Source of the DNA: Planctomycetota bacterium
Lineage (GTDB): Bacteria; Planctomycetota; Phycisphaerae; Phycisphaerales; SM1A02
DNA length: 63,784 nucleotides
Assembly (NCBI GenBank): GCA_024230295.1
Contig: JAAERN010000007.1
Location: 1-63,784, forward strand
Direction of reading: 5' to 3'
The position numbers and the translations under genes were made by a program. The notes below the pieces were generated by a model. That model did no database searches. It worked only from the letters and a program-made list of their open reading frames with translations, and was not told the origin of the DNA. Shown piece by piece: positions 43,276 to 61,625 of this stretch; the stretch's first letter is position 1, and the number at the start of each line of letters is the position of its first letter.

Positions 43276-43434
43276 CATCGGTGATAGTGGAGCATACCAT
43301 GAGGGAAGGTCCCACTCTGAGCCCTCTACAGGTTGCCGAGGCCCGTTCAGGGGGCTATCCTCGCTGACTTCACCCGCTTGTTCCCCCTGTTGTGGGCCTT
43401 ATCAGGGAGGGGCAATCACTCGGAGCCAGTATTC

Positions 43435-45594: not shown

Positions 45595-45627
45595 CCGGTC
45601 ATCCAGTCGGTATCCTCCCGCCTTCAG

Positions 45628-45700
45628 GCCACCCTAGCTCAGTTGGTAGAGCGGAGCTTTCGTAAAGCTCAGGTCAGCGGTTCGAGTCCGCTGGGTGGCT
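45628..45700 (+). tRNA. tRNA-Thr (CGT)
   Basis: A complete cloverleaf: acceptor GCCACCC with GGGTGGC, anticodon stem GAGCT/AGCTC with loop TTCGTAA (anticodon CGT, reading ACG), T-loop TTCGAGT and discriminator T73. The 3' half is duplicated exactly at 60486-60535, so this gene appears to be an integration target. Confidence 0.97.
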
Positions 45701-45703
45701 CTT
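45654..45703 (+). repeat. Left copy of 50-bp direct repeat (putative attL in tRNA-Thr)
   Basis: Bases from the anticodon stem to three bases past the tRNA 3' end are identical to 60486-60535. The identity stops sharply on both sides (G versus C before, C versus T after). Confidence 0.9.
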
Positions 45704-45956
45704 CTGCACGACGCCGCGCCATGTTGCGTGGCGTCTATCAATCGAGGAAGTTCGTCGATATTGATGGCGATACCGATATCGAGGATGCGTTGCAGTTTCT
45801 TGGATGATTCGGAAGTCCTTACGCCGTGGATGACCTTCTTGGCAGACTTGGCGAGTACGGGTGCGGCACCGGCTGAATGACGTACACAACGAGCCTTCTT
45901 CCTTCAGCGTCCGGTTGGAAACACTCGTGATCCCAGCCCGGCGAATCTTTGCAATG
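45704..45956 (-). pseudogene. Possible gene remnant next to the tRNA-Thr boundary
   Basis: The minus strand reads as protein-like stretches in two different frames: 'DIAKIRRAGITSVSNRTLKE' in one, then 'VLAKSAKKVIHGVRTSESSK' followed by 'LQRILDIGIAINIDELPRLI' in the next frame. No start or complete frame links them. An integrase gene would normally sit at this position, but I cannot identify these fragments as one. It may equally be non-coding. Confidence 0.25.
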
Positions 45957-48665
45957 TCAGATGCATGGTCCCCATGCCGCCATGAGTATGAGGAGATCAT
46001 CGATGCCAACGATGCCGGTGTTATCAAAGTCAGCCGCGAGATTGTCCGTTCCGTAGAACTCGATGAAACGAAGTAGATCTGCGACATCGACGAGACCATC
46101 TGCATTGGCAATGTCCTGACGGCATAGTGTCACGCATGGCGGGCCCAAAAGGGACACTGCGTCAATCGCTGCTTCAACACAATCGCTGCTGCCCTCATCA
46201 CAGGCAGTGAATCGAAGACGAAAGTCTGATGTTGGCTGGAATCCACTGATATCACTGAGAGCGAATGAGCGATCAACCCATCCTCCTGTAGCGTCAGGGT
46301 CATCTTCGGAGATCGCCTCTAGTACGATCCAGTTGATTCCGTCATCGATCGAGAACTCGATCAGAAATCCATCATCGTGCGAGTGGCCACATCCACCGTT
46401 GCTGAACCACCTCGCGTACGAGAGTGTGAGATCGTTCATCGAAGCGTTCATTGCGGGAGATGTCAGCCAAGAGCATCCGTTGTCTAAGTCGCCACAATCA
46501 GCACTATTCCCTCGCTGCGTCATGAGACAGTAGGTTGAGCCTTCTTCGGAATCAAAGGTTGGTTCCCCTCTATTCTCGCACCATGGTCCGGGCTCGGCGT
46601 GGTGCCAGGCTCCCGAGCTGGCGGATGTGGTAACAGACCATCCAAGGTCACTCTCCATGGAATCAGTGAAGATTGTTGAGATGAGGTCACCAACCGGAAG
46701 TGTAAATGCGACGCTTGGTGCGCCGAGAGGCAATGTTTGTGTGCCAGTGAGTGAACTTTGTGCTTCGATCCACCACGTGATTGTCGAGCCACATCCAGCA
46801 GGCGGCAAATTGGCTGTCCATGTTTCGCCGTTTTGTACAAGCGGTGTGGAGATTGGCGTTTCTCCATCAACCGATGCATAGAGCAGCGTAGAACCCTCCA
46901 CGATCGTTTCGCCCGTAGCTTTGATCTGTGCGGTCACCGGCGTTGGGGTCCAGTGCACGCCATGATCAGCGACGCTGACGATCGAGAGGAGTGTGTGTGC
47001 CATTGGAGGCGAAGAGACGAGTGAGTAGGCCTGCCCAGTGGGTTCAGTGATACTTGTTCCGCTGACATAGACGGTCCATGTGCCCGGTTCCGGATCTGCG
47101 ACGTAGACCTGCTCGATGGTATTGACACGATCGACGTTCCGCTGCGCAGGCTGGTTGGGGTTGTTCGGATCAAGACTCCATGGGGATACCAGGCCACTGC
47201 TTGGATGAACCAGCAAAAGATCCAGATCATTCATGAGCGTCTCAGCAGTTCCGGCCACTGCTGGAAGATCGTCCCATGCGAGAGTGACTCGGAGCGGCTC
47301 GGAGGGGTCTTCTACCTCAATGACATATGAAGCCAAGTCACTCGGAAGGAGGGAGTTCTCAGTCCAGTTGTGTGCAATCGTGGATTCTGCAGCAGCTTCC
47401 GCGTCAAGAAGGCCCCATCCATAGCGATAGTCCGGACCATCCTGCCAGAGGTCTTCAGCTGTGTGGCACAGAATCGCTCGCCATGTGGAAGGGAGTGGGG
47501 GTGGTGCGTCTGGCCATGCCTGTTGGTGTAGTTCGGCGAGAAGGGCGAGCGTTCCTGACACGATGGGAGTCGCCATCGAGGTTCCGGACATGGTGGCGTA
47601 CGTGCTCTGTTCGCCGCACGAAGTAATTCCAAAGTCATCACTGAGTTGTGAGCCGGGTGCCACGATGTCAGGCTTGATGCGACCATCGTCGGTGGGCCCC
47701 CAGCTGCTGAAGATCGTGACGACATTCGAATCGCTGTAGACCGCGCCAACCGAGATGACATTCTTGGCTGTCGCAGGTTGGCCGATCGTTCCATAGTCAT
47801 AGCCGCAGGTGTCATATGCTCGCTCATTGCCTGCGGCCCACACGCTTGTGACCGGAGTTCCGAGTTCGCCTCGCACGATGCCATCGAGAAGTTCTGCTGT
47901 GACTCCGTAGTCGCCATGCAGCGAGCATGGGTAGCCGTTCAACTGAATGTTGCTGCCAAGTGACTGGTTAAAGGCAATCGGGGTGTACTCGGCCAATTCG
48001 TCTTCATAGAGCGATTCGAGATTCCCGGGATCACTGTAGAAGAAGTAGTCATCGACATTATTGATAACGCGGGCATCGAGCATGACATTCGGTGCCGTGC
48101 CCGTCCATGTGCCACTACTGAGTATTCCATTGCCAGCGATAATGCCGGCGACATGCGTTGCGTGTGCACTGGAGATGCCTGATGAAAATGTCGTAACTCG
48201 GCCAGCCAGATCTGGATGGTCAATGTCGGGCAGTGATGGTTCTACAATGACCACACGCTGGCCTTCACCTTCGAGGTTCCACGCGGGGCTGTGGAGAACA
48301 TCGATTCCGACATCTGGACGCGCGCTATCCATGCAGGGCGTGAGTGGCAGGGGGGCAGGCTCAATCCAGATCGCCCCGGGGAGGGATGCAATAGATTCCA
48401 ATGTGTGTGGTGGAATCAGGAGCGTCAGGATGGGCGTGGTGTGGAGCCGAGAGAGGATCCGACCCCCGAGGGTTGGAATCAGTACTGCAAGTCGATCAGC
48501 ATCAGCGTGCGATGCTGCGCGGAGACAGATCGCCCATTCTGGCGATCTCTCATCAGAACCTGAGTTGACGAACCACGCCTTCGCCGGTGGATCATGCAGC
48601 ATGGGGTGTAGTTCTGCTGCTCCAACAGACGAGGTGAGGAGGATGGAGGCGAGCCATGTCATCAT
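45957..48665 (-). CDS. Secreted S8 subtilase with dockerin tail, altered Asp motif
   Basis: A 902-residue protein with a signal peptide ('MTWLASILLTSSVGA'). The peptidase S8 domain (about 110-430) has His168 in 'HATHVAGIIAG' (Ala replaces the usual Gly), Asn280 in 'VWAAGNE' and Ser363 in 'MSGTSMATPIVSG'. At the catalytic Asp position the sequence is 'RVVIVEPSLPDIDHPDL', with Glu142 instead of Asp. A P-domain-like beta-sandwich follows, then a lectin/jelly-roll-like domain ('DSMESDLGWSVTT', 'LTLSYARWFS'), then dockerin/EF-hand repeats ('DIANADGLVDVADLLRFIEF', 'DFDNTGIVGIDDLLILMAAW'). Its ATG overlaps the stop of the upstream beta-helix gene as ATGA, so they are translated together. Activity may be reduced. 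Confidence 0.85.
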   Translation of the reverse strand: MMTWLASILLTSSVGAAELHPMLHDPPAKAWFVNSGSDERSPEWAICLRAASHADADRLAVLIPTLGGRILSRLHTTPILTLLIPPHTLESIASLPGAIWIEPAPLPLTPCMDSARPDVGIDVLHSPAWNLEGEGQRVVIVEPSLPDIDHPDLAGRVTTFSSGISSAHATHVAGIIAGNGILSSGTWTGTAPNVMLDARVINNVDDYFFYSDPGNLESLYEDELAEYTPIAFNQSLGSNIQLNGYPCSLHGDYGVTAELLDGIVRGELGTPVTSVWAAGNERAYDTCGYDYGTIGQPATAKNVISVGAVYSDSNVVTIFSSWGPTDDGRIKPDIVAPGSQLSDDFGITSCGEQSTYATMSGTSMATPIVSGTLALLAELHQQAWPDAPPPLPSTWRAILCHTAEDLWQDGPDYRYGWGLLDAEAAAESTIAHNWTENSLLPSDLASYVIEVEDPSEPLRVTLAWDDLPAVAGTAETLMNDLDLLLVHPSSGLVSPWSLDPNNPNQPAQRNVDRVNTIEQVYVADPEPGTWTVYVSGTSITEPTGQAYSLVSSPPMAHTLLSIVSVADHGVHWTPTPVTAQIKATGETIVEGSTLLYASVDGETPISTPLVQNGETWTANLPPAGCGSTITWWIEAQSSLTGTQTLPLGAPSVAFTLPVGDLISTIFTDSMESDLGWSVTTSASSGAWHHAEPGPWCENRGEPTFDSEEGSTYCLMTQRGNSADCGDLDNGCSWLTSPAMNASMNDLTLSYARWFSNGGCGHSHDDGFLIEFSIDDGINWIVLEAISEDDPDATGGWVDRSFALSDISGFQPTSDFRLRFTACDEGSSDCVEAAIDAVSLLGPPCVTLCRQDIANADGLVDVADLLRFIEFYGTDNLAADFDNTGIVGIDDLLILMAAWGPCI

Positions 48666-50068
48666 GGACAGCTCACTCCGTACATGGAAATGAGTTCGAG
48701 CAGATCTTCAACGAGCACCGCGCCATCGCCTGTGCCGTCGTAGCGGCAGGTTCCGAGCATGCTCATGAGGAGATTAAGGTCATTCTGGTCGATGTTTCCG
48801 TCTGCATCGATGTCCCCCGCGGCTGCGTTTGACTCGTTGAGCGGAATGAGTCCATCGAGTGACAGGTCTGCAGCGATCCGATACTCAGGAAACCAGGGTG
48901 TTTCGATATCGTAAATTCCGAGTCCAGTAGCACCGTTGTTTCCGTCAAAGCCACAGGCTGAAAAACAGACACGAGGTGGTTGGCCATTACAGATCTCGCA
49001 GGTGGCGAGAAGAACCCCTCCGTATTGAGTACCGGAGGTTGTGTTGTTCTCAAAGTTACAGCGAGTGAGCGTGAGATCGACAGGCTGGGCCAGCCCGTCT
49101 GCTTCCATATAGATCGTTCCCTCACGTGACACATTGTTTGCGAAGAGGCAGTCGTTGAAGGCGGGCGCAGCATCTGTGCAGTACACAGTGCCTTCGCCTG
49201 CTGCGGTCTGGTTCTCTGTAATACGTGTTGCGTGCCACGTGCTCTCGTCGTTCTTCAATCTGATGACACCGTACAAGCCCGCCTCATTTCCGCTTACTGA
49301 ACAGCCGTGGAATGCAGGCCTTCCACCGTTGACCGTAATGACGCAAACGGGCTCTTCATTCATGGCATAGGGCTGACCGCCAGCGAATGTCCCCGTGAAG
49401 ACACAGTCGATGAACTGTGTCGTGGTGGCCGGTCCAGTGCACATGACGCCGCCACCGAATCCATCAGAACTGGTAATCAAGCAATCCTGGAATGTTGCTT
49501 GCCCATCTTCGCTGAGAATGGCCACGTCATCGATGCTTCGGCTCCAGAACGTAAACGCAGCGTGAGAGGTGTTCTCTGAGATTGAGTGAACGGGTATTGC
49601 CGCCCCCGCCGGATCCCACTCGCCGGGTACAACAAGCGTGGGTTCGATGTATTCATTCGGAAGTTGCTTGAGTTGTCGTGGCCGCCCGATGTAGGTGTTT
49701 GCCGCGCCTGTGGTTCGAAGAGCGAAAATGTTGTCGTTCTCAAACCCCTCGGTGGGATTCCAGAATGTGACGTCTGCCCACGTCCCTGCGGCAGTGCAAG
49801 CAGGTCGGAGCGTGATATCTGCATTGTCAATTTCTAGGCTCTCGACGTAGAGACCGGTGGCTACGACAATGTCGTCACCATCGCCACAGGCATCAAGTAC
49901 GCTTTGCAGAATCGGATACTGGGTATTGTTTCCGACATACCAAGTCCACGATCCATCCGAATTCGGGGCTGGGTTTGGATCCGGCCATTCGGCACTCTGC
50001 GTGGTCGCTGCCACACTTGCCAGTGTTCCTAGTGATGTCCAAACTACCCTCCGCACGTGTCGCTCCAT
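48662..50068 (-). CDS. Secreted beta-helix/dockerin protein, paralogue 1 (divergent)
   Basis: A 468-residue protein whose signal peptide is followed by the family start 'AEWPDPNPAP' and 'NTQYPILQSVLDACGDGDDI'. The body is a right-handed parallel beta-helix of short Asn/Cys/Gly-rich rungs ('FQDCLITSSDGFGGGVMCTG', 'FHGCSVSGNEAGLYG'). It ends in two EF-hand/dockerin repeats ('DIDADGNIDQNDLNLLMSML' and a second containing 'LVEDLLELISMYG'). It is the most diverged of five tandem paralogues. The start is set at the ATG at 50068; the open frame to 50122 adds residues before the signal. It is coupled to the subtilase gene by a 4-bp overlap, which the other paralogues lack. Confidence 0.83.
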   Translation of the reverse strand: MERHVRRVVWTSLGTLASVAATTQSAEWPDPNPAPNSDGSWTWYVGNNTQYPILQSVLDACGDGDDIVVATGLYVESLEIDNADITLRPACTAAGTWADVTFWNPTEGFENDNIFALRTTGAANTYIGRPRQLKQLPNEYIEPTLVVPGEWDPAGAAIPVHSISENTSHAAFTFWSRSIDDVAILSEDGQATFQDCLITSSDGFGGGVMCTGPATTTQFIDCVFTGTFAGGQPYAMNEEPVCVITVNGGRPAFHGCSVSGNEAGLYGVIRLKNDESTWHATRITENQTAAGEGTVYCTDAAPAFNDCLFANNVSREGTIYMEADGLAQPVDLTLTRCNFENNTTSGTQYGGVLLATCEICNGQPPRVCFSACGFDGNNGATGLGIYDIETPWFPEYRIAADLSLDGLIPLNESNAAAGDIDADGNIDQNDLNLLMSMLGTCRYDGTGDGAVLVEDLLELISMYGVSCP

Positions 50069-50219
50069 CTTCCAATAGGTATGAGACAGGAGACGCTGTA
50101 TAACGTCAAGGCATTGTCGCATAGGATCTTGCGCCTATACGACAGCTCGTGGCACTGTAGGCAAGATAGGCAAGCAGGTATGCCGTGGTCTCATAGGCAG
50201 GCACGCTGAAATGAGGCTA

Positions 50220-50243
50220 CCCCGGCCTGCAAGCAGGCCGGGG
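50220..50243 (-). terminator. GC-rich hairpin downstream of paralogue 2
   Basis: A perfect 11-bp inverted repeat of CCCCGGCCTGC around AA, about 115 bases past the stop at 50359. There is no T tract, so termination strength is uncertain. Confidence 0.55.
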
Positions 50244-50358
50244 CAACTCGCGTCACGCGAGAGAGAATGCTGTGTGCTGCGTGCGAAGACTCGACAGATG
50301 AAGCCGTCACGCTCTTCTTGGAGCCTGCCATACCTCAGGGGCAGAATTCGCTCAGCAA

Positions 50359-51756
50359 TCAGTTGCAGCTGTTGCCATAGACGGCAATGAGATCGAGCAG
50401 GTCGCCGATTTGGACGTCGCCGCTGTAGTCGCTGTCGTGGGTGCAGGTGCCGAGCATGGTGAAGAGCTCATCGAGGTCGGTCGTGTCGACGAAGCCGTCG
50501 GCGTTCACATCACCAGGAACGCCGGTGCCTGGGGCACCGGCGACGAAGCCACTGTCATTGATGTCCATAGCGATGCGGTACTCGGGAAAGTATGGGGAAT
50601 CGATGTCATAGAGACCGAGGCCCGAGTTTCCGTTGTTGTTGTCAAAGCTGCAGTTGGAGAAGGACACCTCAGGAGCATCGCCTGCGCAGTCGTCGCAGAC
50701 GACCTGCAGGACGCCGCCGTACTGGCCACCCGAGGTCGTGTTGTCCAAGAAGTTGGACAGGGTGAAATTCATGAATCGACTTCCGTCGACGCCTGTACTG
50801 TCGAAGTACACAGTCCCTTCGCGTGAAGCGTTGTTGTAGAAGTGGCAGCCATTGAACATAGGAGTTCCGCCGGTGCACTGATACATGCCTTCGCCAGACA
50901 TGCAGATGTTGAGTGCAAAAGTGCATTTGTACCAGAGGGCTCCGCCGCCGGCCTGATTGACGATCCCAGGTTCGCCACCTTCACTAGTACTGATTACGCA
51001 GCGATGGAACTGCGGCTCGCCGCCTCGGATTGTGATGACGCAGACAGGCTCTCCGTTGAGGTCGAAGGGCTGTCCTCCAGCGAATGTCTCTGCGAAGTTA
51101 CATGTGACAAACTGTGTCGTGTTGGCGTCGCCCGTGATCATGGCACCGCCCCCGAACCCGTCAGCGCTGCTGATTCTGCAGTCTTGGAAGGTGGCCTGCC
51201 CGTTGTGGCTGTAGATGGCGACGTCGTCAATGGACCGACTCCAGAAACGGAACCCCCGGTTGTACACATTCCGGACGTCCACAGGATCGCCTTTGGGATC
51301 CCACTCACCGGGTGTCACTTCTGTGGCTACGGCATAGCCGTTCGGCAACTGCGTGAGCATGCGTGGTCGGCCAATATATGTGTTGTTGCCACCAGTGATA
51401 TAGATGGCGTACTGGTTGTCATTTTCGAATCCTTCGGTCGGGTTCCAGAAGTAGACTTCTGCCCATGCACCGCCTCCGCCACTGAGAGCATCGAGTTCGC
51501 AGAAGGGGCGCAGAGTGATATCGTTGTTATCGATTGCGAGGCTCTCAACGTAGAGCCCCCCAGACACGACGATTTCATCACCGTCACCACAGGCGTCAAG
51601 GACGTCTTGGATGATCGGGTACTGAGTGTTGTTGCCCACGTACCAGGTGTTGGTGCCGTCGCCGTTGGGCGCAGGGTTGGGGTCCGGCCATTCCGCGCCG
51701 ATTGCTGCTGTGGCCAGCAGGCTTGTTGCAGTGATACATACGAGAGCATGTTGCAT
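50359..51756 (-). CDS. Secreted beta-helix/dockerin protein, paralogue 2
   Basis: A 465-residue protein with signal 'ALVCITATSLLATAAIGA', then 'EWPDPNPAPNGDGTNTWYVG', the beta-helix rungs and the dockerin tail ('DVNADGFVDTTDLDELFTML', 'DSDYSGDVQIGDLLDLIAVY', ending GNSCN). The ATG at 51756 follows AAGGAGA; the frame back to 51840 reads through the upstream terminator. The last 150 or so bases are nearly identical to those of paralogues 3-5, pointing to recent duplication or gene conversion. The middle third (residues about 240-340) differs most among copies. Confidence 0.88.
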   Translation of the reverse strand: MQHALVCITATSLLATAAIGAEWPDPNPAPNGDGTNTWYVGNNTQYPIIQDVLDACGDGDEIVVSGGLYVESLAIDNNDITLRPFCELDALSGGGGAWAEVYFWNPTEGFENDNQYAIYITGGNNTYIGRPRMLTQLPNGYAVATEVTPGEWDPKGDPVDVRNVYNRGFRFWSRSIDDVAIYSHNGQATFQDCRISSADGFGGGAMITGDANTTQFVTCNFAETFAGGQPFDLNGEPVCVITIRGGEPQFHRCVISTSEGGEPGIVNQAGGGALWYKCTFALNICMSGEGMYQCTGGTPMFNGCHFYNNASREGTVYFDSTGVDGSRFMNFTLSNFLDNTTSGGQYGGVLQVVCDDCAGDAPEVSFSNCSFDNNNGNSGLGLYDIDSPYFPEYRIAMDINDSGFVAGAPGTGVPGDVNADGFVDTTDLDELFTMLGTCTHDSDYSGDVQIGDLLDLIAVYGNSCN

Positions 51757-51795
51757 GAGAAGTCTCCTTCTTGTTCTCTTCGAAGAGCAAGATTG

Positions 51796-51829
51796 AAAAA
51801 CCCTGGCTGCCGATTTCCGGCAGCCAGGG
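51796..51829 (-). terminator. Intrinsic terminator of paralogue 3
   Basis: A perfect 12-bp stem (51801-51812 with 51818-51829), 5-base loop, followed on the minus strand by TTTTT (51796-51800). It lies 20 bases past the paralogue 3 stop, so paralogues 2 and 3 are separate transcripts. The same hairpin, with one mismatch, follows paralogue 4. Confidence 0.88.
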
Positions 51830-51849
51830 CGTGAAATCACAAGATCAGA

Positions 51850-53274
51850 TCAGTTGCAACTGTTGCCATAGACGGCGATGAGATCAAGCAGGTCGCCGAT
51901 TTGGACGTCGCCGCTGTAGTCGCTGTCATGGGTGCAGGTGCCGAGCATGGCGAAGAGCTCGTCGAGGTCGGTCGTGTCGACCAAACCATCGGCGTTTACG
52001 TCACCAGCAACGCCGGCGTCTGGGGCGCCAGCAACGAGGCCACCGTCATCGATGTCACCAGCGATGCGGTACTCGGGGAAGTATGGGGAATCAATGTCAT
52101 AGAGACCAAGGCCCATGTTTCCGTTGTTGCCGTCGAAACCGCAGTCGGAGAATGAAATCTCCGGAGCATCGCCCGAGCAGTCATCGCAGACGACTTGGAC
52201 TGCGCCGCCGTACTGATCGCCCGAGGTGCTGTTGTCCTCGAAGTTACAGCTGATGAAGTTCATGAATCGAGCGCCGTCCACGCCTGTGCTATCGAAGTAC
52301 ACAGTGCCTTCTCGTGACACGTTGTCTTCGAACCAGCAGTGGTTGAACATCGGTGTTCCGCCGGTGCACTGATACATGCCTTCGCCAGACATGCAGTAGT
52401 TCTCGTCAAACCAGCAGTCGTACCAGATGGTGCCGCCACCGGCCTGGTTGACGATTCCAGTCTCGCCGCCCTCATTCTCGTCGATCTCACAGTCATGGAA
52501 TTGGGCTTCGCCGCCGCGGATCGTGATCACACAGACGGGCTCGCCGTTTGGCGCAAATGTCTGACCGCCAGCGTAGGTTCCCTCGAATTCACATTCAACG
52601 AACTGCGTCGTGTTGGCGTCGCCGGTGATCATGGCACCGCCGCCAAAGCCGTCGGAGCTTGTGATGAAACAATCTTGGAATGTGGCTTGGCCGTTGTCGC
52701 TGTAGATGGCGACGTTGTCAATTGAGCGGCTCCAGAAAGCCATGGTGCGGTTGTCAGCAACATCAGTTCCTTGTACATCTTGCACGTCGATCGGAGGCCC
52801 CGCCGGATCCCATTCGCCTGGAACTACTGTGGTGGTGACCACATTCGTGTTGGGAAGCTGTGTGAGCATTCGCGGTCGTCCGACGTATGTGTTATTGCCA
52901 CCGGTGACATATATGGCGTATTCGTTGTCGTTCTCAAAGCCCTCAGTGGGGTTCCAGAACACGACTGAGGCCCATTGGCCCACGCAGCCGCCATTGTCGA
53001 GCCAGCCCCCAACTTCGCAGAACGGACGAAGGGTGACATCGTTGTTATCGATCGCGAGGCTCTCCACGTAGAGGCCTCCGGCTACAACGATTTCATCGCC
53101 GTCACCACAGGCGTCCAAGACATCCTGAATGATCGGATACTGAGTGTTGTTGCCCACGTACCAGGTGTTGGTGCCGTCGCCGTTTGGCGCAGGGTTGGGG
53201 TCCGGCCATTCCGCGCCGATAGCGGCTGTGGCCATTAGGCTTGTTGCAGTGATGCACATAAGAGTGTGTCGCAT
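51850..53274 (-). CDS. Secreted beta-helix/dockerin protein, paralogue 3
   Basis: A 474-residue protein, the closest relative of paralogue 2. The signal 'MCITATSLMATAAIGA' is followed by 'EWPDPNPAP'. The beta-helix contains 'FWSRSIDNVAIYSDNGQATF' and 'GDANTTQFVECEFEGTYAGG'. The dockerin tail matches paralogues 2, 4 and 5. Distinctive inserts are 'GGWLDNGGCVGQWASVV' after the first rungs and 'DVQGTDVADNRT' mid-protein. The ATG at 53274 has GGGAGAG upstream. Surface adhesion or carbohydrate binding through the beta-helix is inference; no polysaccharide lyase catalytic signature is visible. Confidence 0.88.
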   Translation of the reverse strand: MRHTLMCITATSLMATAAIGAEWPDPNPAPNGDGTNTWYVGNNTQYPIIQDVLDACGDGDEIVVAGGLYVESLAIDNNDVTLRPFCEVGGWLDNGGCVGQWASVVFWNPTEGFENDNEYAIYVTGGNNTYVGRPRMLTQLPNTNVVTTTVVPGEWDPAGPPIDVQDVQGTDVADNRTMAFWSRSIDNVAIYSDNGQATFQDCFITSSDGFGGGAMITGDANTTQFVECEFEGTYAGGQTFAPNGEPVCVITIRGGEAQFHDCEIDENEGGETGIVNQAGGGTIWYDCWFDENYCMSGEGMYQCTGGTPMFNHCWFEDNVSREGTVYFDSTGVDGARFMNFISCNFEDNSTSGDQYGGAVQVVCDDCSGDAPEISFSDCGFDGNNGNMGLGLYDIDSPYFPEYRIAGDIDDGGLVAGAPDAGVAGDVNADGLVDTTDLDELFAMLGTCTHDSDYSGDVQIGDLLDLIAVYGNSCN

Positions 53275-53287
53275 GAGAGCTCTCCCT

Positions 53288-53335
53288 ATTTCTTCCTCAC
53301 AAATCAAGATCATTTCTTCCTCGCGAATCAAGATC
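53288..53335. repeat. Tandem 24-bp duplication upstream of paralogue 3
   Basis: Two adjacent copies (53288-53311 and 53312-53335) differ at two bases. They lie between the ribosome binding site of paralogue 3 and the terminator of paralogue 4, consistent with slippage in a leader region. Confidence 0.75.
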
Positions 53336-53340
53336 AAAGA

Positions 53341-53369
53341 CCCTGGCTACCGATTTCCGGCAGCCAGGG
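53341..53369 (-). terminator. Terminator hairpin of paralogue 4
   Basis: The same hairpin as at 51801-51829 with one mismatch in the stem, 20 bases past the stop of paralogue 4. It is followed by TCTTTGATC rather than a pure T run. It appears to have been copied along with the gene. Confidence 0.75.
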
Positions 53370-53389
53370 CGTGAAATCACAAGATCAGA

Positions 53390-54778
53390 TCAGTTGCAAC
53401 TGTTGCCATAGACGGCGATGAGATCAAGCAGGTCGCCGATTTGGACGTCGCCGCTGTAGTCGCTGTCATGGGAGCAGGTGCCGAGCATGGCGAAGAGCTC
53501 GTCGAGGTCGGTCGTATCGACCAAGCCATCGGCGTTCACGTCACCAGCAATGCCGCTGTCTGGGGCATCGGCTACGAGGCCACCATCATTGATGTCGCCA
53601 GCGATGCGGTACTCAGGGAAGTATGGGGAATCAATGTCATAGAGACCAAGGCCCATGTTCCCGTTGTTGTCGTCGAAACCGCAGTCGGAGAATGAAATCT
53701 CCGGAGCATCGCCCGAGCAGTCATCGCAGACGACTTGAACTGCGCCGCCGTACTGATCGCCAGAGGTGCTGTTCGCCTCGAAGTTGCACTCGACGAAGTT
53801 CATGAATCGAGCGCCGTCCACGCCGGTGCTGTCGAAGTACACAGTGCCTTCTCGTGAATGGTTATAACTGAAGTCGCACTGGTAGAACGCTGGGGTGCCA
53901 CCTGTGCAGCGGTACGTGCCTTCACCAGACATGGCGAAGTTGTCGTCGAACCCGCAGTCGTACCAGATGGTGCCGCCGCCAACTTGGTTGACGATTCCAG
54001 ATTCGCCACCTTCGTTATCACCGACATAGCAGCCATGAAACTGAGATTCGCCGCCACGGATCGTGATGACACAGACGGGCTCGCCGTTGAGATCAAAGGT
54101 TTGGCCACCCGCATAGGTGCCAAAGAAGTAACAGTTGACAAACTGCGTGGTGTTGGCATCGCCTGTGATCATGGCGCCACCGCCAAAGCCCTCAGCGCTG
54201 GTGATTCCGCAGTCTTGGAAGGTTGCTTGGCCGTTGTCGCTGTAGATGGCGACGTTGTCGATCGAGCGGCTTGCGAAACCGAAGTTATCGCCCCAGACAT
54301 CCTGAACGTCGACGGGTGCACCCATTGGAGACCACTCGCCAGGCTGAATCATTGTGGTAACGACGTTGGTGTTCGGGAGTTGCGTGAGCATCCGAGGTCG
54401 GCCGATGTAGGTGTTGTTGCCACCGGTGACGTACATGGCGTACTCGTTATCGTTCTCGAAGCCCTCGGTTGGATTCCAGAACCAGACCTCATCCCAATAG
54501 CCGCCACCTTTGGTTGGCGAGCAGAACGGACGAAGTGTGACGTCGTTGTTGTCAATTGAAAGGCTCTCAACGTAGAGGCCTCCGGCTACGACGATCTCAT
54601 CGCCGTCACCGCAGGCGTCAAGGACGTCCTGAATGATTGGGTACTGAGTGTTGTTGCCCACGTACCACGTGTTCGTTCCGTCACCATTTGGTGCCGGATT
54701 CGGGTCAGGCCATTCCGCCCCAAGCGCCGAAACCGTGGCGAAACAAATCGCCGTTGCTGCAAATGCAAACTTTTTCAT
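53390..54778 (-). CDS. Secreted beta-helix/dockerin protein, paralogue 4
   Basis: A 462-residue protein with a different signal peptide from paralogues 2-3 ('FAFAATAICFATVSALGA', after MKK), then the shared 'EWPDPNPAP' start, beta-helix and near-identical dockerin tail. Variable rungs include 'FHGCYVGDNEGGESG' and 'YQCDFSYNHSREGT'. The ATG at 54778 is preceded by GGAGAGAGAG; the open frame to 54826 is an extension. A 573-bp gap separates it from paralogue 5. Confidence 0.88.
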   Translation of the reverse strand: MKKFAFAATAICFATVSALGAEWPDPNPAPNGDGTNTWYVGNNTQYPIIQDVLDACGDGDEIVVAGGLYVESLSIDNNDVTLRPFCSPTKGGGYWDEVWFWNPTEGFENDNEYAMYVTGGNNTYIGRPRMLTQLPNTNVVTTMIQPGEWSPMGAPVDVQDVWGDNFGFASRSIDNVAIYSDNGQATFQDCGITSAEGFGGGAMITGDANTTQFVNCYFFGTYAGGQTFDLNGEPVCVITIRGGESQFHGCYVGDNEGGESGIVNQVGGGTIWYDCGFDDNFAMSGEGTYRCTGGTPAFYQCDFSYNHSREGTVYFDSTGVDGARFMNFVECNFEANSTSGDQYGGAVQVVCDDCSGDAPEISFSDCGFDDNNGNMGLGLYDIDSPYFPEYRIAGDINDGGLVADAPDSGIAGDVNADGLVDTTDLDELFAMLGTCSHDSDYSGDVQIGDLLDLIAVYGNSCN

Positions 54779-55351
54779 TGCTCTCTCTCCATGTGTGCTG
54801 TTGCACAAGACATTGGTTGTTGCCAAGTCGCACCGTGCGTCATGGCAGCGTTATTTCACAGGGGGGCTGGAACAGTCCCACCGCCCATCTTGCGTTCGTT
54901 GATATCAGAAGAAACCCATGGTGTCATGGCGACGTAAGTCGCTCTGAAACATCTGGTTGAGTTCTTCCAATGAAGTTTTGGTCTGGCCAGCAATTGGCAA
55001 AGAGAGACCAATGAAACTCCAGATCGTGTATTCAAGGGCACCATGGCGACACGCTTTGATGTTGAGGAATGAGGGCGATGTGGGGGGGAGAGGCGAGGCG
55101 TCATAAGCCAGACAGGTGTGGCATCTTGGGAGGGTTGGGGGGTATTGGCAGACTTGCGATCGCAAGAGTTGATGGGAGAACCGGTTGAAGCAAAGTCTTG
55201 CTTTTAATGTTTTTTGCGGGCCATTTCTAACGTCAACTATGACACGTCCTTGTACGCAAACCACCCCCGCCAGCGTGTGCTAGCGGGGGTGGAAGAGCGC
55301 CCGTATAGATAGAACAAGGCTGAGCCTTGTAAGGGGAATCTCAGAATCGGG
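54779..55351 (-). other. 573-bp gap between paralogues 4 and 5, with terminator hairpin
   Basis: A strong hairpin at 55261-55292 (10-bp CCACCCCCGC stem, with an inner AGC/GCT pairing) lies 60 bases past the paralogue 5 stop and probably ends its transcript. A minus-strand open frame of 119 codons (54905-55264) starts inside the hairpin and has no family-like features or ribosome binding site, so I do not call it a gene. The rest should contain the paralogue 4 promoter, which I cannot locate. Confidence 0.6.
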
Positions 55352-56743
55352 TCAGTTGCAACTATTGCCATAGACAGCAATGAGATCGAGCAGGTCGCCG
55401 ATTTGGACGTCGCCGCTGTAGTCACTGTCATGGGTGCAGGTGCCGAGCATGGCGAAGAGCTCCTCAAGATCGGTCGTGTTGACGAAGCCGTCAGCGTTCA
55501 CGTCACCGGCAGCACTGTTGCCTGAAGCATCGGTGACGAGGCCGCCGTCATTGATGTCAGCAGCGATACGGTACTCGGGGAAGTATGGGGAATCGATGTC
55601 ATAGAGACCAAGGCCCATATTTCCGTTGTTGCCGTCGAATCCGCAGTCCGAGAAGGAGATCTCGGGGGCGTCGCCTGAACAGTCGTCGCAGACGACCTGC
55701 ACCGCACCGCCGTACTGAGCACCAGACGTATAGTTGCCTTCAAAGTTGCAGTGGCTGAAGTTCATGAAGCGAGCACCTGAAACGCCAGTGCTGTTGAAGT
55801 AGATGGTTCCTTCGCGTGATTCGTTCTTGGCGAATATGCAGTCGTTGAAGGAAGGCGTGCCGCCTTCGCAGCGGTACATGCCTTCACCAGACATGGTGAA
55901 GTTGTCGGCGAAGTCACAGTCGTACCAGATGCCACCGCCATCACGCTGGTGAATAACGCCAGCAGCACCGGCCTCGTTTCCAATAATTCCACAGCCATGG
56001 AACTGCGGTTCGCCGCCAATGATGGTGACGACGCAGACTGGCTCGCCGTTGAGTTCAAAGTTCTGTCCACCGGCATACGTGTTGGTGAACAGGCAATTCA
56101 CGAACTGGGTCGTGTTGGCATCGCCTGTAATCATGGCGCCACCACCGAAACCATCAGAACTGCTGATTATGCAGTCTTGGAACGTGGCAAGGCCGTCAAC
56201 GCTGTAAATGGCGACATTGTCGATTGAACGGCTCCAGAAGGTGATCGCGAATCCGCTCGTTGCAGACGCGACATCCTGAACGTCCATTGGGGCGCCTGAA
56301 GGATCCCACTCTCCCGGCTGGATCATCGTGGTGACAACATTCGTGTTGGGAAGTTGCGTGAGCATTCGAGGGCGACCAATGTAGGTGTTGTTTCCACCAG
56401 TGACGAACATTGCGTAGTCATTGTCATTTTCGAACCCCTCAGTGGGATTCCAGAACGTGACAGAATCCCACTCTCCGTCCTCGTTGCAGAATGGTCGAAG
56501 CGTGACATCATTGTTGTCGATTGAGAGGCTCTCGACATAGAGGCCTTCGGCTACCACGATTTCATCGCCGTCACCGCAGGCGTCCAAGACATCCTGAATA
56601 ATTGGATATTGGGTGTTGTTGCCCACGTACCAGGTGTTTGTCCCGTCGCCATTTGGGGCAGGGTTTGGGTCAGGCCATTCGGCACCGACTGCTGAGCCAG
56701 CAGCGAAGCAGAGGGCTGCTGTTGTGCATACGAAGTTTCTCAT
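55352..56743 (-). CDS. Secreted beta-helix/dockerin protein, paralogue 5
   Basis: A 463-residue protein. The signal is 'VCTTAALCFAAGSAVGA', with mature start 'EWPDPNPAP' at about residue 22. Beta-helix rungs include 'FQDCIISSSDGFGGGAMITG', 'FHGCGIIGNEAGAAG' and 'FNDCIFAKNESREGT'. The C-terminal dockerin (residues about 413-463) has EF-hand loops 'DVNADGFVNTTDL' and 'DSDYSGDVQIGDLLDL', which would bind calcium and may anchor the protein to a surface partner. The start at 56743 has GGAGAGA upstream. It is the first of the five in transcription order. Confidence 0.88.
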   Translation of the reverse strand: MRNFVCTTAALCFAAGSAVGAEWPDPNPAPNGDGTNTWYVGNNTQYPIIQDVLDACGDGDEIVVAEGLYVESLSIDNNDVTLRPFCNEDGEWDSVTFWNPTEGFENDNDYAMFVTGGNNTYIGRPRMLTQLPNTNVVTTMIQPGEWDPSGAPMDVQDVASATSGFAITFWSRSIDNVAIYSVDGLATFQDCIISSSDGFGGGAMITGDANTTQFVNCLFTNTYAGGQNFELNGEPVCVVTIIGGEPQFHGCGIIGNEAGAAGVIHQRDGGGIWYDCDFADNFTMSGEGMYRCEGGTPSFNDCIFAKNESREGTIYFNSTGVSGARFMNFSHCNFEGNYTSGAQYGGAVQVVCDDCSGDAPEISFSDCGFDGNNGNMGLGLYDIDSPYFPEYRIAADINDGGLVTDASGNSAAGDVNADGFVNTTDLEELFAMLGTCTHDSDYSGDVQIGDLLDLIAVYGNSCN

Positions 56744-57180
56744 TGCGGTCTCTCCTCAGAGTCCTCGTCCCCAGTGCGGGGTGAGGCGTGACGTGGTGTT
56801 GCAGGTGCGCCTGCGTTGAATCAGTTGCCTGGCGACGAATCTGCCACCAAGTCTGTGCTGTGATACCACGTTGAAGGATCGTGATAAACCCATGTGAAGA
56901 CTATTGTTCTGGCAGCATCATGCATGCATTTTGCATTGCATCGGAGATGTCCGTTGTACCGATGTGGCATTCGTGTATCAGAGCGTGCCGCGGCTTTGTT
57001 CACAGGCCACAGATGGGGGCGTCTGGTAAATCAGTGAACAGTAGAGGCCTGGTTAAGGCAGGGGGTTTGCATAGGCCTTGGTCATTGGCGGCATGTGCGT
57101 AGGGAGAGGAACTATTTCGGAAGAAAACGCGGCCCGCCACTGCTGTGACCGGCCGCATTGGTTTGGATTGAGAGTTCGAA
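56744..57180 (-). other. 437-bp gap with terminator of the hydrolase gene
   Basis: On the minus strand GCGGCC and GGCCGC (57129-57156) form a hairpin followed by GTTTTCTT, about 25 bases past the hydrolase stop: a plausible intrinsic terminator. The rest, 56744-57128, is gene-free and should contain the paralogue 5 promoter. It includes an A/T-rich stretch with ATGCATGCATTTTGCATTG near 56920-56940, which I cannot interpret. Confidence 0.55.
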
Positions 57181-59223
57181 CTACTTCGCTGTGGCCAGTG
57201 ACGAGTCTTCCCCCGAGAGTGTATCTGCGGTGATGAGGCTGGTTCGACGAGCCTTGGCTACTGGCTCTGTGATTGGGACGCTTACCAGCATGCGGTGGGC
57301 AATGTCTCCGGTAGGGGCGACCACGCCAACCGTGGCTTCCGAGCAAAGCGGCGAGCGGTGAGAAGACACCAGAATCAGATCATGCTGCTCGTGCGTGGTC
57401 TCGTTGGTGCCTGCATGCGTTCGCGTTGCAGTAATCGGGATGCCTGCGGTCAACGCATGCCAGTGAAGATTGCTGTCGGCATTGCCATAGAGGATGACAT
57501 TGCTGCAGGAGGATTTGTCGGTGTCGAATTCTGTGTCCGAGATCACTGTGGCGCCAGCATTGGACGTGATCCACATTCGCTCCTGATCAAAGCGAGCCTT
57601 GTTGCGAAGTGAGTGTGTTTCGTTGTCTGTTCCCTGCGTGCCGTATACGAGAATCAGAGGCCGCTCGAGAATACGGTCGAATCCGTCTCGCTCAGTTGGC
57701 GTCGCGACTGGATTTGCGGTGCGAGTTGATGATGCAAGAAAGGTGTCAAGCGACTCTGAGGCAACGGTATCTCGTCCCCACCAGTGTCCTTGTTCTGGAA
57801 TGACTTCGATCGTGGCACTCGCAACATTGGACGCCAGTGCGTTATTCAATCGCTTGGCTGCGTCAGCTGGCATGGAGGGGTCATCGGCACCCCATCGGAG
57901 CAGTACGTGCATGTCTCGGGCCGTAGAGAGGGGTACATCGCCGGGAAGATCCGTGCCAACTGGCATAACTCCCGCGAAAGATTCCGGGTGCGAGAGTGCG
58001 AGCCGCCATGCGGCGCGGCCAGCATCAGAGAATCCTGTGACGCACTGGCGAGATTCATCGATCTCATAACGAGAGTGCATTTGCGCGAGCGCTTCCATGG
58101 CGTCCGCTCGGCCAAGTGGCGTTCCAGCAACACCTGTTCGGCGGCTCCATGGGACGCATACATATCGATCGTCTTGATGGTGATAGGCTCGGGCAGTGCT
58201 GTGTGGCGATTTGACCGATGCGGTCAGTGCCATCAGGAGCGGCTTGGGGCCTTCCGTCACGTCTTCACTGGCTGGGGGCACCATGATGCACGATTGCACC
58301 GAGCCGTCGAGTTCACTGATCCAGGTGTGACGAATCCGATCTGTGGGATAGCGAGTTGCCAGATTGACAACGTTACCTGCCATGCGGGTTCCTGCTGCGT
58401 TTCGAATTTCGACATCAACTGGATAGGGCGAGCCTGTGAGTTTGAAGGGTGGTGGCCCGACGATTCGGAACGGAACCTTGCGCACCGAATTGGCAGGAAT
58501 CGACACCATCGGTTCAACATGCCATTGAGTGGGGGGAAGTTCTGGATACAGCCGAGGAATCATCTTCTGATCTGGAACAAACCGGCAATAGGTTGCAATA
58601 TCAAGCCCTTCGAGAGGCCGATCCGATGCGTTTATGATCAGAATGGAGCCTACTTCATCAACCGGCTGCAGATCGATGATCTGCGGAAGCGTGGCATCGT
58701 ACGGTGATACGAAGACAAGATCGTTGCCATCGAGTGGGTCGATGGTCATGGTGATAGGGCCGCCCGATGATCTCACAAGGATGTCATTGTTGCCTTCGCG
58801 AAGAGTGATAGGAAGTTTGTGGATTCCGGGTGACTCGGTTGCTCCGACGCGGGACGCACCGTTGACAATGGCGAGGTTGTGGCCGCCACACGTCAGCATC
58901 GCGGGGCCAGCGACCGCGTCATCCACGCGGTATGCGATCCACGCACCGGAAGGGGCAGGGATCCGGCCATAGGCATCTGGAGAGACAGATACCCACGTTG
59001 ATGTGCCATGTGCGGAGTCACCGGAAGTGGGACGACCCAGTTCATTACGTGCAAGCATTCCAAGAACGGGGTCCAATTCTACCGATGCAGACGCAGCAAT
59101 TGGATATGCGGGATGTGATGAAGGCGCAACAAAGAGAAGCGCTTCGCTTGGTTTGATCGTTGATGCGGCGTGTGTGGCGGAGGTGGCCAATGTGATTGCA
59201 GTGGTGATGTACAGCCAATTCAT
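57181..59223 (-). CDS. Exported alpha/beta hydrolase (esterase/PHB depolymerase-like)
   Basis: A 680-residue protein with a short signal peptide ('LYITTAITLATSATHAA'). The N-terminal 300 residues are beta-rich with no named domain. Residues about 310-500 form an alpha/beta hydrolase domain with nucleophile Ser399 in 'TGFSDAGRAAW', acid Asp448 in 'RWGADDPSMP' and His480 in 'PEQGHWWG'. This order fits secreted esterases and polymer depolymerases of the prolyl-oligopeptidase-like group. The C-terminal 180 residues form a second alpha/beta segment ('PLILVYGTQGTDNETHSL', 'SSCSNVILYGNADSN'), as in other two-part exported hydrolases. It follows the regulator gene by 32 bp, probably as an operon. The substrate is unknown. 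Confidence 0.82.
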   Translation of the reverse strand: MNWLYITTAITLATSATHAASTIKPSEALLFVAPSSHPAYPIAASASVELDPVLGMLARNELGRPTSGDSAHGTSTWVSVSPDAYGRIPAPSGAWIAYRVDDAVAGPAMLTCGGHNLAIVNGASRVGATESPGIHKLPITLREGNNDILVRSSGGPITMTIDPLDGNDLVFVSPYDATLPQIIDLQPVDEVGSILIINASDRPLEGLDIATYCRFVPDQKMIPRLYPELPPTQWHVEPMVSIPANSVRKVPFRIVGPPPFKLTGSPYPVDVEIRNAAGTRMAGNVVNLATRYPTDRIRHTWISELDGSVQSCIMVPPASEDVTEGPKPLLMALTASVKSPHSTARAYHHQDDRYVCVPWSRRTGVAGTPLGRADAMEALAQMHSRYEIDESRQCVTGFSDAGRAAWRLALSHPESFAGVMPVGTDLPGDVPLSTARDMHVLLRWGADDPSMPADAAKRLNNALASNVASATIEVIPEQGHWWGRDTVASESLDTFLASSTRTANPVATPTERDGFDRILERPLILVYGTQGTDNETHSLRNKARFDQERMWITSNAGATVISDTEFDTDKSSCSNVILYGNADSNLHWHALTAGIPITATRTHAGTNETTHEQHDLILVSSHRSPLCSEATVGVVAPTGDIAHRMLVSVPITEPVAKARRTSLITADTLSGEDSSLATAK

Positions 59224-59255
59224 GTGATTGGTTCCTTCTCTCTAAAGGGCAAGTA

Positions 59256-59876
59256 TCAGCCAGCGGTTGCTCGTTGGAGCATGCGAGTCAACTCGCTGAT
59301 GGCAATCGGCTTTCGGAGGAAGAACCGAACGTTTGCTTCCTTAAGCGATTCCATTTCTCCCTGCCGAAACTTCGTCGCAATGACGATGACTTCGGAAGAA
59401 GGCAGGCCATTGGCTTTACGAAGCGTTCTGCAGGCCGAGACGATGTCGATGTCGGGAAGCCTTGCATTGAGAATGGTGACGTGCGGCTCGATCTTCGCTG
59501 TCAGTACGCCTGCGTCGTATGCGGTGGCTGCGACGTGTACTGCCATGTCGCCTAAGTTGTCTGCTGCTTGCTTGATGAGATCGAGGGTGTCCGACTCGTG
59601 GTCCATCACAAGGAGGGTGATGGCATTGAGCCCGAGTGCATCAAGTGGCATCTTGTGGGCCCGCATGAACCGAATGAGGTCCTCGCGAGGAATTCGGCGA
59701 GCTTTTGAGCCCGGGACACGAAATCCACGTATGCGCCCGTCGTCAAAGCACCGGATGATTGTTTGTTGCGAAAGGTTGCAAAGTCTCGCCGCTTCACCAG
59801 TTGTGAATACTTGCTTGCCAGCTTCCGGGGCGAGACGATTTCCATTCAGTCCCGCCAGTGTTGTTGTCTGGGCCAT
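59256..59876 (-). CDS. HTH plus pseudo-receiver regulator
   Basis: A 206-residue paralogue of the regulator at 35446-36024. It has an excisionase/MerR-like winged helix (residues 23-80, 'FTTGEAARLCNLSQQTIIRC', 'GFRVPGSKARRIPREDLIRF') and a receiver domain (86-200). The receiver keeps the acidic residues at 'VMDHES' and the conserved Lys189 in 'FLRKP', but the phospho-acceptor is Asn137 ('VTILNARLPDID'), so ordinary phosphorylation is unlikely. The start is taken as the ATG at 59876 after a run of G; TTG at 59888 is an alternative. As first gene of the island in transcription order and 32 bp from the hydrolase, it may control island expression (inference). Confidence 0.85.
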   Translation of the reverse strand: MAQTTTLAGLNGNRLAPEAGKQVFTTGEAARLCNLSQQTIIRCFDDGRIRGFRVPGSKARRIPREDLIRFMRAHKMPLDALGLNAITLLVMDHESDTLDLIKQAADNLGDMAVHVAATAYDAGVLTAKIEPHVTILNARLPDIDIVSACRTLRKANGLPSSEVIVIATKFRQGEMESLKEANVRFFLRKPIAISELTRMLQRATAG

Positions 59877-60283
59877 TGGCCCCCCCAATCTTGCGTGTCG
59901 TACGCTTCTTTTCCTTCTTGCGTGGTTACTCAGTACTTCTTCGCTTGCCGTTGTAACAAGTTGCAGGAGAGGTTTTTATGGTGAGGCAGTCAGAAAACAG
60001 GAGACAAGTCTCTGTTAGAGCGGCGCTTCTGTTGTATGAGTTGGGCTGCTGTCCGAAAATGAAGACCTGCAGGAAAAGATATGTAACGTGTTATTTGGCA
60101 AGTGTTAGTGGGTTGAGAATCAGGGCGTGCCGTGCTCCTGTCACAGAACACGGTGTGCCGTATGTACTTAGGTCAGAAAAACTTCTAGATTCTCTCAATT
60201 ACCCAGTTGTCCACAGTGAGTTCAGGTTCCAGCGGCGGCGTACGAGCCTTGGACAGAACAGAATGGTTGCAACTCCGCCTCCC

Positions 60284-60389
60284 CCACATGGCCGTCGCCG
60301 GACGCCGTGACCATCGTCATGATGCCCGCGCGAATCGGGTTCGGCAGCGTTGGCCAGATTTTCATCAGCCGCCACAGGTCGGCGTCCTC
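60284..60389 (-). pseudogene. Possible remnant of an integrase-associated coding sequence
   Basis: The minus strand encodes 'EDADLWRLMKIWPTLPNPIR' and then 'AGIMTMVTASGDG', inside an 85-codon frame with no good start. This resembles the 'D-x-aWp-x-Lp-x2-i-x2-gI-x-amV' segment I associate, from memory, with C-terminal tails or small genes next to planctomycete integrases. Its place beside the putative attR would fit a decayed recombination module. Identification is tentative. Confidence 0.3.
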
Positions 60390-60485
60390 GGGTAAATTGC
60401 GTGCGCTACTGCTGGGCCTACTGCTGGGGGGCTGGTTCAGTAGTGGCGTAAGTCGCCGATCCACCGCAGGTTGTGGCATCGCCCC

Positions 60486-60535
60486 GAGCTTTCGTAAAGC
60501 TCAGGTCAGCGGTTCGAGTCCGCTGGGTGGCTCTT
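60486..60535 (+). repeat. Right copy of 50-bp direct repeat (putative attR, tRNA-Thr 3' fragment)
   Basis: Exact copy of 45654-45703: anticodon arm, variable loop, T arm and 3' acceptor strand of tRNA-Thr(CGT), without the 5' acceptor strand and D arm. It cannot fold as a tRNA. Confidence 0.9.
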
Positions 60536-60584: not shown

Positions 60585-61625
60585 ATGCCACGGTTTCGGA
60601 ATGTCCGGTTGTTGAGTATTGCGGTTCTGACGGTAGTACTTCCGGCGATGGGCCAATCGCCAGCAGATGCGGGGCCACCGACTGCTGAGGCAATCGTGGA
60701 GCGATTCATTGATGCCACAGGTGGGCGAGCAGCGTGGGAATCGCTGACGAGCATTCGCGGTCTCGGGACGATTGAAGTAGTCGGGGTGCCCGTTCGTGGC
60801 TCCGTGGCGATCTATCAGACTGCCGAGGGATTTCGGCGTTCGGTCGATGCGGACGGCGTAGGTGTGCAGGCGACGATTCGTCGCGGGGCTGAAGCTTGGA
60901 ATGTTCGCGGTGACGGTTTGGTCACGGCGATGGAGGGTGCTGAACTGCTGAAGATGCAGCGTGACAACTCCTTCAATCCACTCCTAGACCCGTCGCAGAT
61001 CTACGCATCGCTGGCGGTCAACGGTGTCGAAGAGGTTGCGGGGGCGCAGGCATGGGTCGTCCGCTGTGTTCCCGAGAACGATCCAGAAGCCGAAGACCTT
61101 CGATACTTCGATATGGAATCTGGCTTGCAGGTCAAACTGGTTCAGCGGGGATCAGGCCAAGGGGCCGCGATTCCGACCGAGATATTCCTTTCGGACTACC
61201 GTCCGGTTGGTGAAGTGCAATTCGCGTTTGAAACCATGATCGTGGCCGGCCGGGGCCGGATTCAGATCTCACTGCAGGCCATGCAGTCCAATGTGTCGAT
61301 TCCATCGTGTCTGTTTGAGACGCCCGATGGGAACATCATCAAACCATCCGCCGAGCAACCTCGTCAAGTTCTGGAGGCCTTCATGAAGGTGGATGTCAAT
61401 GCCCTGACTGCATCCCAGGTGGAGAAATGGATAGAGCGGCTCGATGACGCACATCGCCGGATTCCAAAGGGCTCACCGCAGGCCGAGGCCATGGGCAACG
61501 TCCTCCGCGAATGCCGCCGCGCATGCCATATGCGACTGCAGAAGATTGAGGAAGCGGGCGATGGTGCCAAGGAAGAACAACCTTCCGGAGGCGAGCATCC
61601 TACTGGAGCGGACCACCCCTCCTGA
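60585..61625 (+). CDS. Exported LolA-like (outer-membrane lipoprotein-sorting type) protein
   Basis: A 346-residue protein with signal 'LLSIAVLTVVLPAMGQSPAD', followed by 'EAIVERFIDATGGRAAWESL'. This is the opening of many exported proteins with a LolA/LppX-like half-barrel fold. The beta-rich body has 'GVEEVAGAQAWVVRC' and 'YFDMESGLQVKLVQR'. The C-terminal 90 residues are helical and end in a hydrophilic Glu/His/Pro tail. It is probably a periplasmic lipid- or lipoprotein-handling protein, by fold resemblance only. It is the first gene outside the right island boundary. Confidence 0.75.
   Translation: MPRFRNVRLLSIAVLTVVLPAMGQSPADAGPPTAEAIVERFIDATGGRAAWESLTSIRGLGTIEVVGVPVRGSVAIYQTAEGFRRSVDADGVGVQATIRRGAEAWNVRGDGLVTAMEGAELLKMQRDNSFNPLLDPSQIYASLAVNGVEEVAGAQAWVVRCVPENDPEAEDLRYFDMESGLQVKLVQRGSGQGAAIPTEIFLSDYRPVGEVQFAFETMIVAGRGRIQISLQAMQSNVSIPSCLFETPDGNIIKPSAEQPRQVLEAFMKVDVNALTASQVEKWIERLDDAHRRIPKGSPQAEAMGNVLRECRRACHMRLQKIEEAGDGAKEEQPSGGEHPTGADHPS

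Follow-up and report, generated by a model that had tools for sequence, protein, structure and literature searches.

The described elements closest to the locus reported here, a 14,782-bp insert at the tRNA-Thr(CGT) gene of an uncultured Phycisphaerales bacterium, are the islands catalogued by Islander, which are recognised by an intact transfer RNA (tRNA) gene, a displaced same-strand fragment of its 3' end and an integration site centred on the anticodon. That resource counts 3760 islands having a 3' fragment and 2083 having an anticodon-centred site among 3919 candidates, and it requires an integrase gene within the island (PMC4383910). Tycheposons, known from aquatic bacteria, are likewise bordered by tRNA genes and carry non-mobility genes, and those described contain a tyrosine recombinase (PMC10872708). 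Hitcher elements and integrase-less cassette arrays (CALINs) depend on the recombinase of a helper (PMC11389934). Xer islands, according to the Islander paper (PMC4383910), use dif sites and not tDNA; the site here is a tRNA. Our locus lies in a stretch of 63,784 nucleotides (contig JAAERN010000007.1, hereafter the window), which is an entire contig (C7) of a metagenome-assembled genome (MAG) of 2.70 Mb in 180 contigs, 97.6% complete. It has the borders of the Islander islands and the tycheposons but, unlike both, contains no integrase; like the hitchers and CALINs it would depend on a helper's recombinase, although neither a helper nor a shared mobilisation signal was identified here and integron attC sites were not searched for. 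We regard it as a tRNA-targeted genomic island in the wide sense, real but of an ordinary kind, and notable mainly for the missing integrase. Among the titles and abstract openings listed by a literature search, none deals with tRNA-bounded islands in Phycisphaerales.

The first-pass annotation, made from the letters of the window, had described a base-for-base, same-orientation repeat of the 3' half of the tRNA, and this description holds. The two copies (Table 1) agree at 50/50 letters on the same strand, at a spacing of 14,832, and an exact 50-bp repeat within 64 kb is no chance event. The repeat starts at the first base of the anticodon arm, tRNA position 27, and reaches two bases beyond the tRNA end. 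Inside it, the anticodon arm forms a near-palindrome, with two 7-base arms around a 3-base centre, that would be the recombination core. The anticodon loop is one integrase sub-site in tRNA genes (sub-site A in PMC4383910), and the start of the fragment fits this known sub-site. Fragments of the same tRNA start at position 24 in one genome of the same genus (G005), at position 23 in another (G007), and at the equivalent of position 27 in a lone copy in G020. In a simulation, the chance of four uniform starts falling within 5 nt was 0.0011, the 5-nt window having been picked after the data were seen. These starts appear to be those of an anticodon-type integrase site.

The right-hand copy was also said to be a headless fragment, and we found it to be one. 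ARAGORN calls a second complete tRNA-Thr at 60460-60533, which we rejected because its first 26 bases match the real gene at 11 positions only; Rfam reports nothing in this interval at E<=0.1. The ARAGORN call is an annotation trap. The lone fragment in G020 (locus L144, G020:C21, position 618 of the reversed locus) starts exactly at the anticodon arm, lies on a separate contig from the intact tRNA and differs at its 3' end.

We compared the site across nine genomes of the genus (G000-G008, G000 being the genome of the window), with the HEAT-repeat gene as the reference for the left flank. This gene and the right-flanking gene, named LolA-like in the first-pass annotation and without a match in Pfam or NCBIfam, are present in all nine. 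Among the eight genus mates, five (G001, G002, G003, G004 and G006) have the empty site that had been expected in relatives: the HEAT gene is joined to the LolA-like gene through a single tRNA-Thr, with no other gene between them. The window's flanks, joined across the repeat, align with the empty site of G001, the nearest relative in the genus. In G007, the site holds about 2 kb, with one gene without a family match and a tRNA fragment. The island of G005 is incomplete and split over contigs C179 and C293; one contig has the tRNA followed by an Rce1-like protease gene, and the other has the fragment followed by the LolA-like gene. G008 has a hairpin and a short spacer along with the tRNA, but no recognisable tRNA fragment. 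The site contents of G000, G005 and G007 have no protein cluster in common. The tRNA-Thr(CGT) site is used repeatedly, and the proposal of tRNA-targeted integration is borne out by the empty sites, by the rejoining of the flanks to the G001 arrangement and by the alternative cargos at the same site.

Beyond the LolA-like gene, the protein clusters follow the order c0 - c3 - c4 - c5 - c12 - c13 - c14 in G001, G002, G007 and G008, and G081, of genus g8, has c0, c3, c4, c5 and c10 there; because this order is conserved, the right flank belongs to the chromosome. Outside the genus, locus L251 (G116:C125, 1-2336) has dockerin and beta-helix-like genes after the tRNA and hairpin, and is cut by the contig end. 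In G067 and G095, genus mates of G116, the LolA-like gene comes directly after the tRNA, possibly making this a further filled/empty case.

In a 13-row maximum-likelihood tree of the HEAT protein, each filled genome was joined to empty ones: G000 with G001 (support 100/100), G007 with G002 (100/100), and G005 with G003 and G006 (100/99). Filled and empty states changed a minimum of three times over eight genomes, a count taken without G008, which sits on a long branch, and without four outgroups. For uncultured Phycisphaerales, this maps an insertion hotspot at which three sister groups each combine filled and empty sites. Identity at fourfold sites of the HEAT gene is 38% between G000 and G001 (n=376), 36% and 35% for G005 against its two sister genomes (n=343 and 293), and 34% between G007 and G002 (n=331); these sites are near saturation among these pairs. 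The fragment differs from the tRNA at 0/50 positions in G000 (95% upper bound 5.8%), 2/48 in G005 and 10/48 in G007. The insertion in G000 therefore looks recent, its fragment being fully identical although the fourfold sites are not. The simplest reading would be independent insertions of different ages, the one in G000 being far more recent than the divergence of G000 and G001; a young fragment could also be mimicked by gene conversion from the tRNA.

Eight large open reading frames (ORFs) lie between the repeat copies, all on the minus strand, in agreement with the original picture of a one-strand cargo with a regulator and five paralogues (Table 1). The other four beta-helix paralogues are 53-81% identical to BH2, and in our reading of the alignment the copies end in a stretch similar to the GC-dockerin-like end of the subtilase. 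An AF2 model of BH2, built from the five window paralogues only, had as its best PDB matches in Foldseek mostly beta-helix polysaccharide-acting proteins, at E ~6e-4 and with low TM-scores; BH2 may resemble beta-helix polysaccharide enzymes as a fold class only. We infer that the cargo encodes a regulated group of proteins, exposed on the surface or secreted, that handle polymers or serve attachment. Between the beta-helix genes, 51801-51829 and 53341-53369 are near-identical hairpin-forming stretches, terminator- or repeat-like.

Table 1. Features of the island and its flanks, in window coordinates
Feature	Position	Strand	Basis
HEAT-repeat protein gene, conserved left chromosomal flank	43333..45594	+	HEAT_2 below curated cut-off; in 59/61 genomes
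Intact tRNA-Thr(CGT)	45628..45701	+	ARAGORN; Rfam 65.8 bits
Left repeat copy, 50 bp (tRNA 3' half, from first anticodon-arm base)	45654..45703	+	Sequence identity
Hairpin directly 3' of the tRNA	45710..45735	+	Pattern search
S8 subtilase, weak GC-type dockerin end (below cut-off)	45957..48665	-	Pfam/NCBIfam profiles
Beta-helix paralogue BH5, most diverged	48662..50122	-	Pfam Beta_helix 27.0 bits, cut-off 25.9
Beta-helix paralogue BH4	50359..51840	-	Paralogue alignment, tree
Beta-helix paralogue BH3	51850..53337	-	Paralogue alignment, tree
Beta-helix paralogue BH2	53390..54826	-	Low-confidence AF2 model, mean pLDDT 60
Beta-helix paralogue BH1	55352..56743	-	Paralogue alignment, tree
DLH / extracellular PHB-depolymerase-like esterase	57181..59223	-	Matches below curated cut-offs
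HTH_17 + response-receiver regulator	59256..59888	-	Pfam
Right island end without recognisable gene	59889..60485		Integrase HMM and gene scans
Right repeat copy, displaced tRNA 3' fragment	60486..60535	+	Sequence identity
LolA-like gene, conserved right chromosomal flank	60585..61625	+	Conserved synteny

Conservation of the cargo as an ancestral core had been named at the outset as an argument against integration, and the beta-helix family turned out to be accessory. At E<=1e-40, our threshold for presence, it has relatives in 12/181 family genomes and 5/45 genera; within the genus only G000 has it, and 0/8 genus mates do. Mates other than G008 match the beta-helix proteins mainly at their C-terminal end. 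In four genomes of genus g52 (G094, G066, G115 and G130), the regulator, the esterase-like gene and the beta-helix copies are ordered and oriented as in the cargo; the subtilase then follows in three of them, and in G130 the contig ends there. The g52 operon differs in its location, lying on other contigs than tRNA-Thr and, in G066, G115 and G130 (3/4), near lepA, which was identified in G066 by TIGR01393 (909 bits) and recognised in the other two from a shared protein start. Genus g23 again has esterase-like and beta-helix genes, accompanied by a subtilase in G087. In a quick tree of the beta-helix proteins (SH-aLRT support only), the copies of the window (98), of g23 (99) and of g52 (98) form clades of their own, and so the arrays probably expanded separately. 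Identity to g52 is 53-60% for the regulator, 40-43% for the subtilase and 42-52% for BH2; for vertical genes it is 67% (HTHRR2, a second HTH_17-receiver protein described below) and 38-40% (HEAT). A recent transfer from g52 is not supported, since the operon shows no clearly greater closeness to g52 than do the vertical genes. The cargo is one operon known elsewhere in the family, and this whole operon, probably for secreted proteins, is the sole cargo of the island.

We also compared the cargo with known classes of mobile and defence elements, using Pfam for all eight ORFs and PHROGs and PADLOC for five of the eight. Neither Pfam nor PHROGs revealed relaxase, secretion or capsid-related genes, such as would mark an integrative and conjugative element (ICE), an integrative mobilizable element (IME) or a phage satellite. 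PHROGs matched the subtilase to protease and unknown-function profiles and the regulator to receiver or excisionase-type HTH profiles. A defence island was rejected, with PADLOC matching only the S8 protease (subtilase/IetS) and, weakly, the HTH protein (mad1). Carriage of the cargo by a plasmid, phage or virus was likewise set aside: plasmid and phage databases gave no match to BH2, and viral contigs none to the beta-helix alignment. The HTH_17-receiver protein was considered as an excisionase, as it matches TIGR01764 above the cut-off and, weakly, PHROG excisionase profiles. It belongs to an order-wide regulator family with relatives in 60/61 genomes, and its 53-60% identical relative heads the same operon in g52. 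In 20 loci scanned around such relatives (L224-L243, that of the window included), no recombinase lay within about 1.5 kb; one relative in G028 adjoins a recombinase. The excisionase role is rejected, not disproved.

The island was first described as lacking a complete recombinase, and our searches agree: Pfam gave no match, and a custom-built integrase hidden Markov model (HMM), run in six frames over 45600-60600, was equally silent. The same HMM scored 430 bits on the integrase of G028 and 143.5 and 35.7 bits on two partial genes, the first of which was in its training set together with the G028 integrase. Our genome-wide search, which counted PF00589 matches, covered tyrosine recombinases and not serine recombinases, which PMC4383910 describes as not known to target tRNA genes. 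It found two matches in G000, probably XerC and XerD, and one to three in each genus mate. The third matches, in L124 (G005:C86) and L125 (G002:C11), are partial integrase genes whose C-terminal frames seem, in our reading, to enter tRNA-like sequence; L125 also has a beta-helix-like repeat protein.

In G028, of another genus, a phage-type integrase (L249 2440-3762; PF00589, 80 bits) lies at the HEAT locus, its end 37 bases away from this tRNA; contamination of this bin is 7%, and a second copy of HEAT sits on a different contig. An integrase 40% identical to it, in G031 of a further genus (L248 4148-5506), abuts the 5' end of a second complete tRNA-Thr(CGT). At E<=1e-20, relatives of the G028 integrase occur in 8/151 family genomes and in 0/9 genus genomes. 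MAGs often miss mobile elements, and an integrase elsewhere in the cell is therefore possible.

The ends of the inserts were compared among the filled sites. A strict pattern detects the hairpin that follows the tRNA once in each of G000, G005, G007 and G008, always at this position, and does not find it at any of the five empty sites; it gives a one-mismatch match elsewhere in G001. Similar hairpins follow tRNA-Thr in genera g5, g8, g22, g24, g27, g52, g53 and g55. Under a looser pattern, the empty site of G002 is flagged too, and different hairpins occur at some empty sites. On the grounds of the other genera and of G002, we rejected the hairpin as a hallmark of the element; it may be an old terminator that was lost in some lineages along with an excised island. 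The whole left ends of G000 and G007 align with a score of 69, the top of 300 shuffles being 32. The right ends of G005 and G007 align with a score of 27 over 90 nt (top of 300 shuffles, 24), and over 600 nt their score is reached by 5/300 shuffles.

Taken as a whole, it is highly probable that a circle with the 3' half of the tRNA and the eight-gene operon recombined into tRNA-Thr(CGT). The DNA circle would have recombined with the chromosomal tRNA at the anticodon arm, such that the left-hand tRNA was made whole by the 3' half brought in on the circle, while the resident 3' half was pushed away to become the right-hand repeat copy. As the recombinase, a tyrosine integrase is most likely, of the kind that today neighbours this tRNA in another genus. 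Within this account, the type of recombinase, the circular intermediate, the direction of the event (a gain in G000) and the function of the cargo are the parts that we infer.

Several observations weigh against this reading. The hairpin at the left end resembles terminators that stand behind the same tRNA in other genera, and G008 shows the hairpin but no fragment; part of the left end may therefore be ancestral. Without the hairpin, the score of the G000 and G007 left ends is reached by 23/300 shuffles and is not significant; the right end of G000 is not significantly similar to those of G005 and G007 either, 50 and 240 of 300 shuffles reaching the scores. G008 has a partial beta-helix relative, truncated by a contig end and 42% identical over residues 322-477 (E 6e-20). 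Since the identities of the cargo to g52 are about those of genes in place, the operon belongs to the gene pool of the family, with no recent donor seen. The shift in composition is small (GC 0.560 against 0.585 and 0.599), no conjugation or phage structural gene was recognised among the eight ORFs by Pfam or, for five of them, by PHROGs, and the integrase HMM found nothing better than E 2.5 in the island, neither an integrase nor a remnant. Finally, the island is known from one MAG only.

If the island did enter by site-specific recombination, its missing integrase has to be explained. We give about an even chance to the explanation that the island had its own integrase, which was deleted after insertion. 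The path from autonomous to helper-dependent elements is known (the reductive model, PMC11389934), and the stretch of about 600 bp without a recognisable gene at the right end could be the scar; yet six frames hold no remnant, and with the repeat still perfect, the loss must have been quick and clean. Alternatively, the island never had an integrase and was integrated in trans by that of another element acting at the same tRNA site, a possibility that we hold to be real but doubtful. It would account for the lack of any integrase trace in the G000 island, although its insertion looks recent, in the roughly 2-kb insert of G007 and in about 1.2 kb of the left end of G005, for a cargo that is one operon and little else, and for the alike right ends of G005 and G007 despite their different cargo; a suitable integrase exists in other genera. 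However, the genus genomes contain no relative of the G028 integrase at E<=1e-20 and, besides Xer-like recombinases, only the partial genes in G002 and G005; a clean deletion would look identical; and the likeness of ends does not extend to the right end of G000, while on the left it rests on the common hairpin. A bolder form of this idea, which we consider rather unlikely, is that the tRNA-Thr(CGT) locus is an exchange port, where bare-operon circles, each with a half-site, short ends and one operon, are swapped by the integrase of transient elements. Such a port would be comparable to integron cassettes in that both rely on an integrase located elsewhere, and if integrase-free transfer is true, tRNA sites would be added to the helper-dependent elements.

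Explanations without site-specific gain fare worse. It is very unlikely that the operon always stood beside the tRNA and that recombination of the tRNA with the fragment removed it from the "empty" relatives. Hairpins of this kind are widespread after the tRNA in the family, excision would also take the hairpin, as the empty genomes show, and six g52 genomes have 2-7 kb between the tRNA and the LolA-like gene. But the g52 operon is on other contigs, the three filled sites share no protein cluster, and a fragment without function that predates the genus should no longer be 50/50 identical with fourfold sites near saturation, unless it was maintained by gene conversion. RecA-type (Campbell) integration, in which a circle bearing half a tRNA by chance enters without a site-specific recombinase, seems most improbable: 50 bp of identity is in principle enough for it, but the starts of four fragments all fall within 5 nt of one another at the anticodon arm and the same site is used repeatedly. 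There is scarcely any chance of an assembly chimera joined at the repeat; a MAG of 180 contigs invites the suspicion, but both flanks match the synteny of the genus and the same architecture was assembled in G007.

Two further features lie on the HEAT side of the tRNA. HTHRR2 is encoded at 35458-36015 (+), and relatives 65-95% identical to it stand on that side of the tRNA in G001, G002, G008, G067, G116 and four g52 genomes. A Cobalamin riboswitch (RF00174, 61.2 bits) at 43118-43316 (-) starts a minus-strand gene region that ends at 42101.

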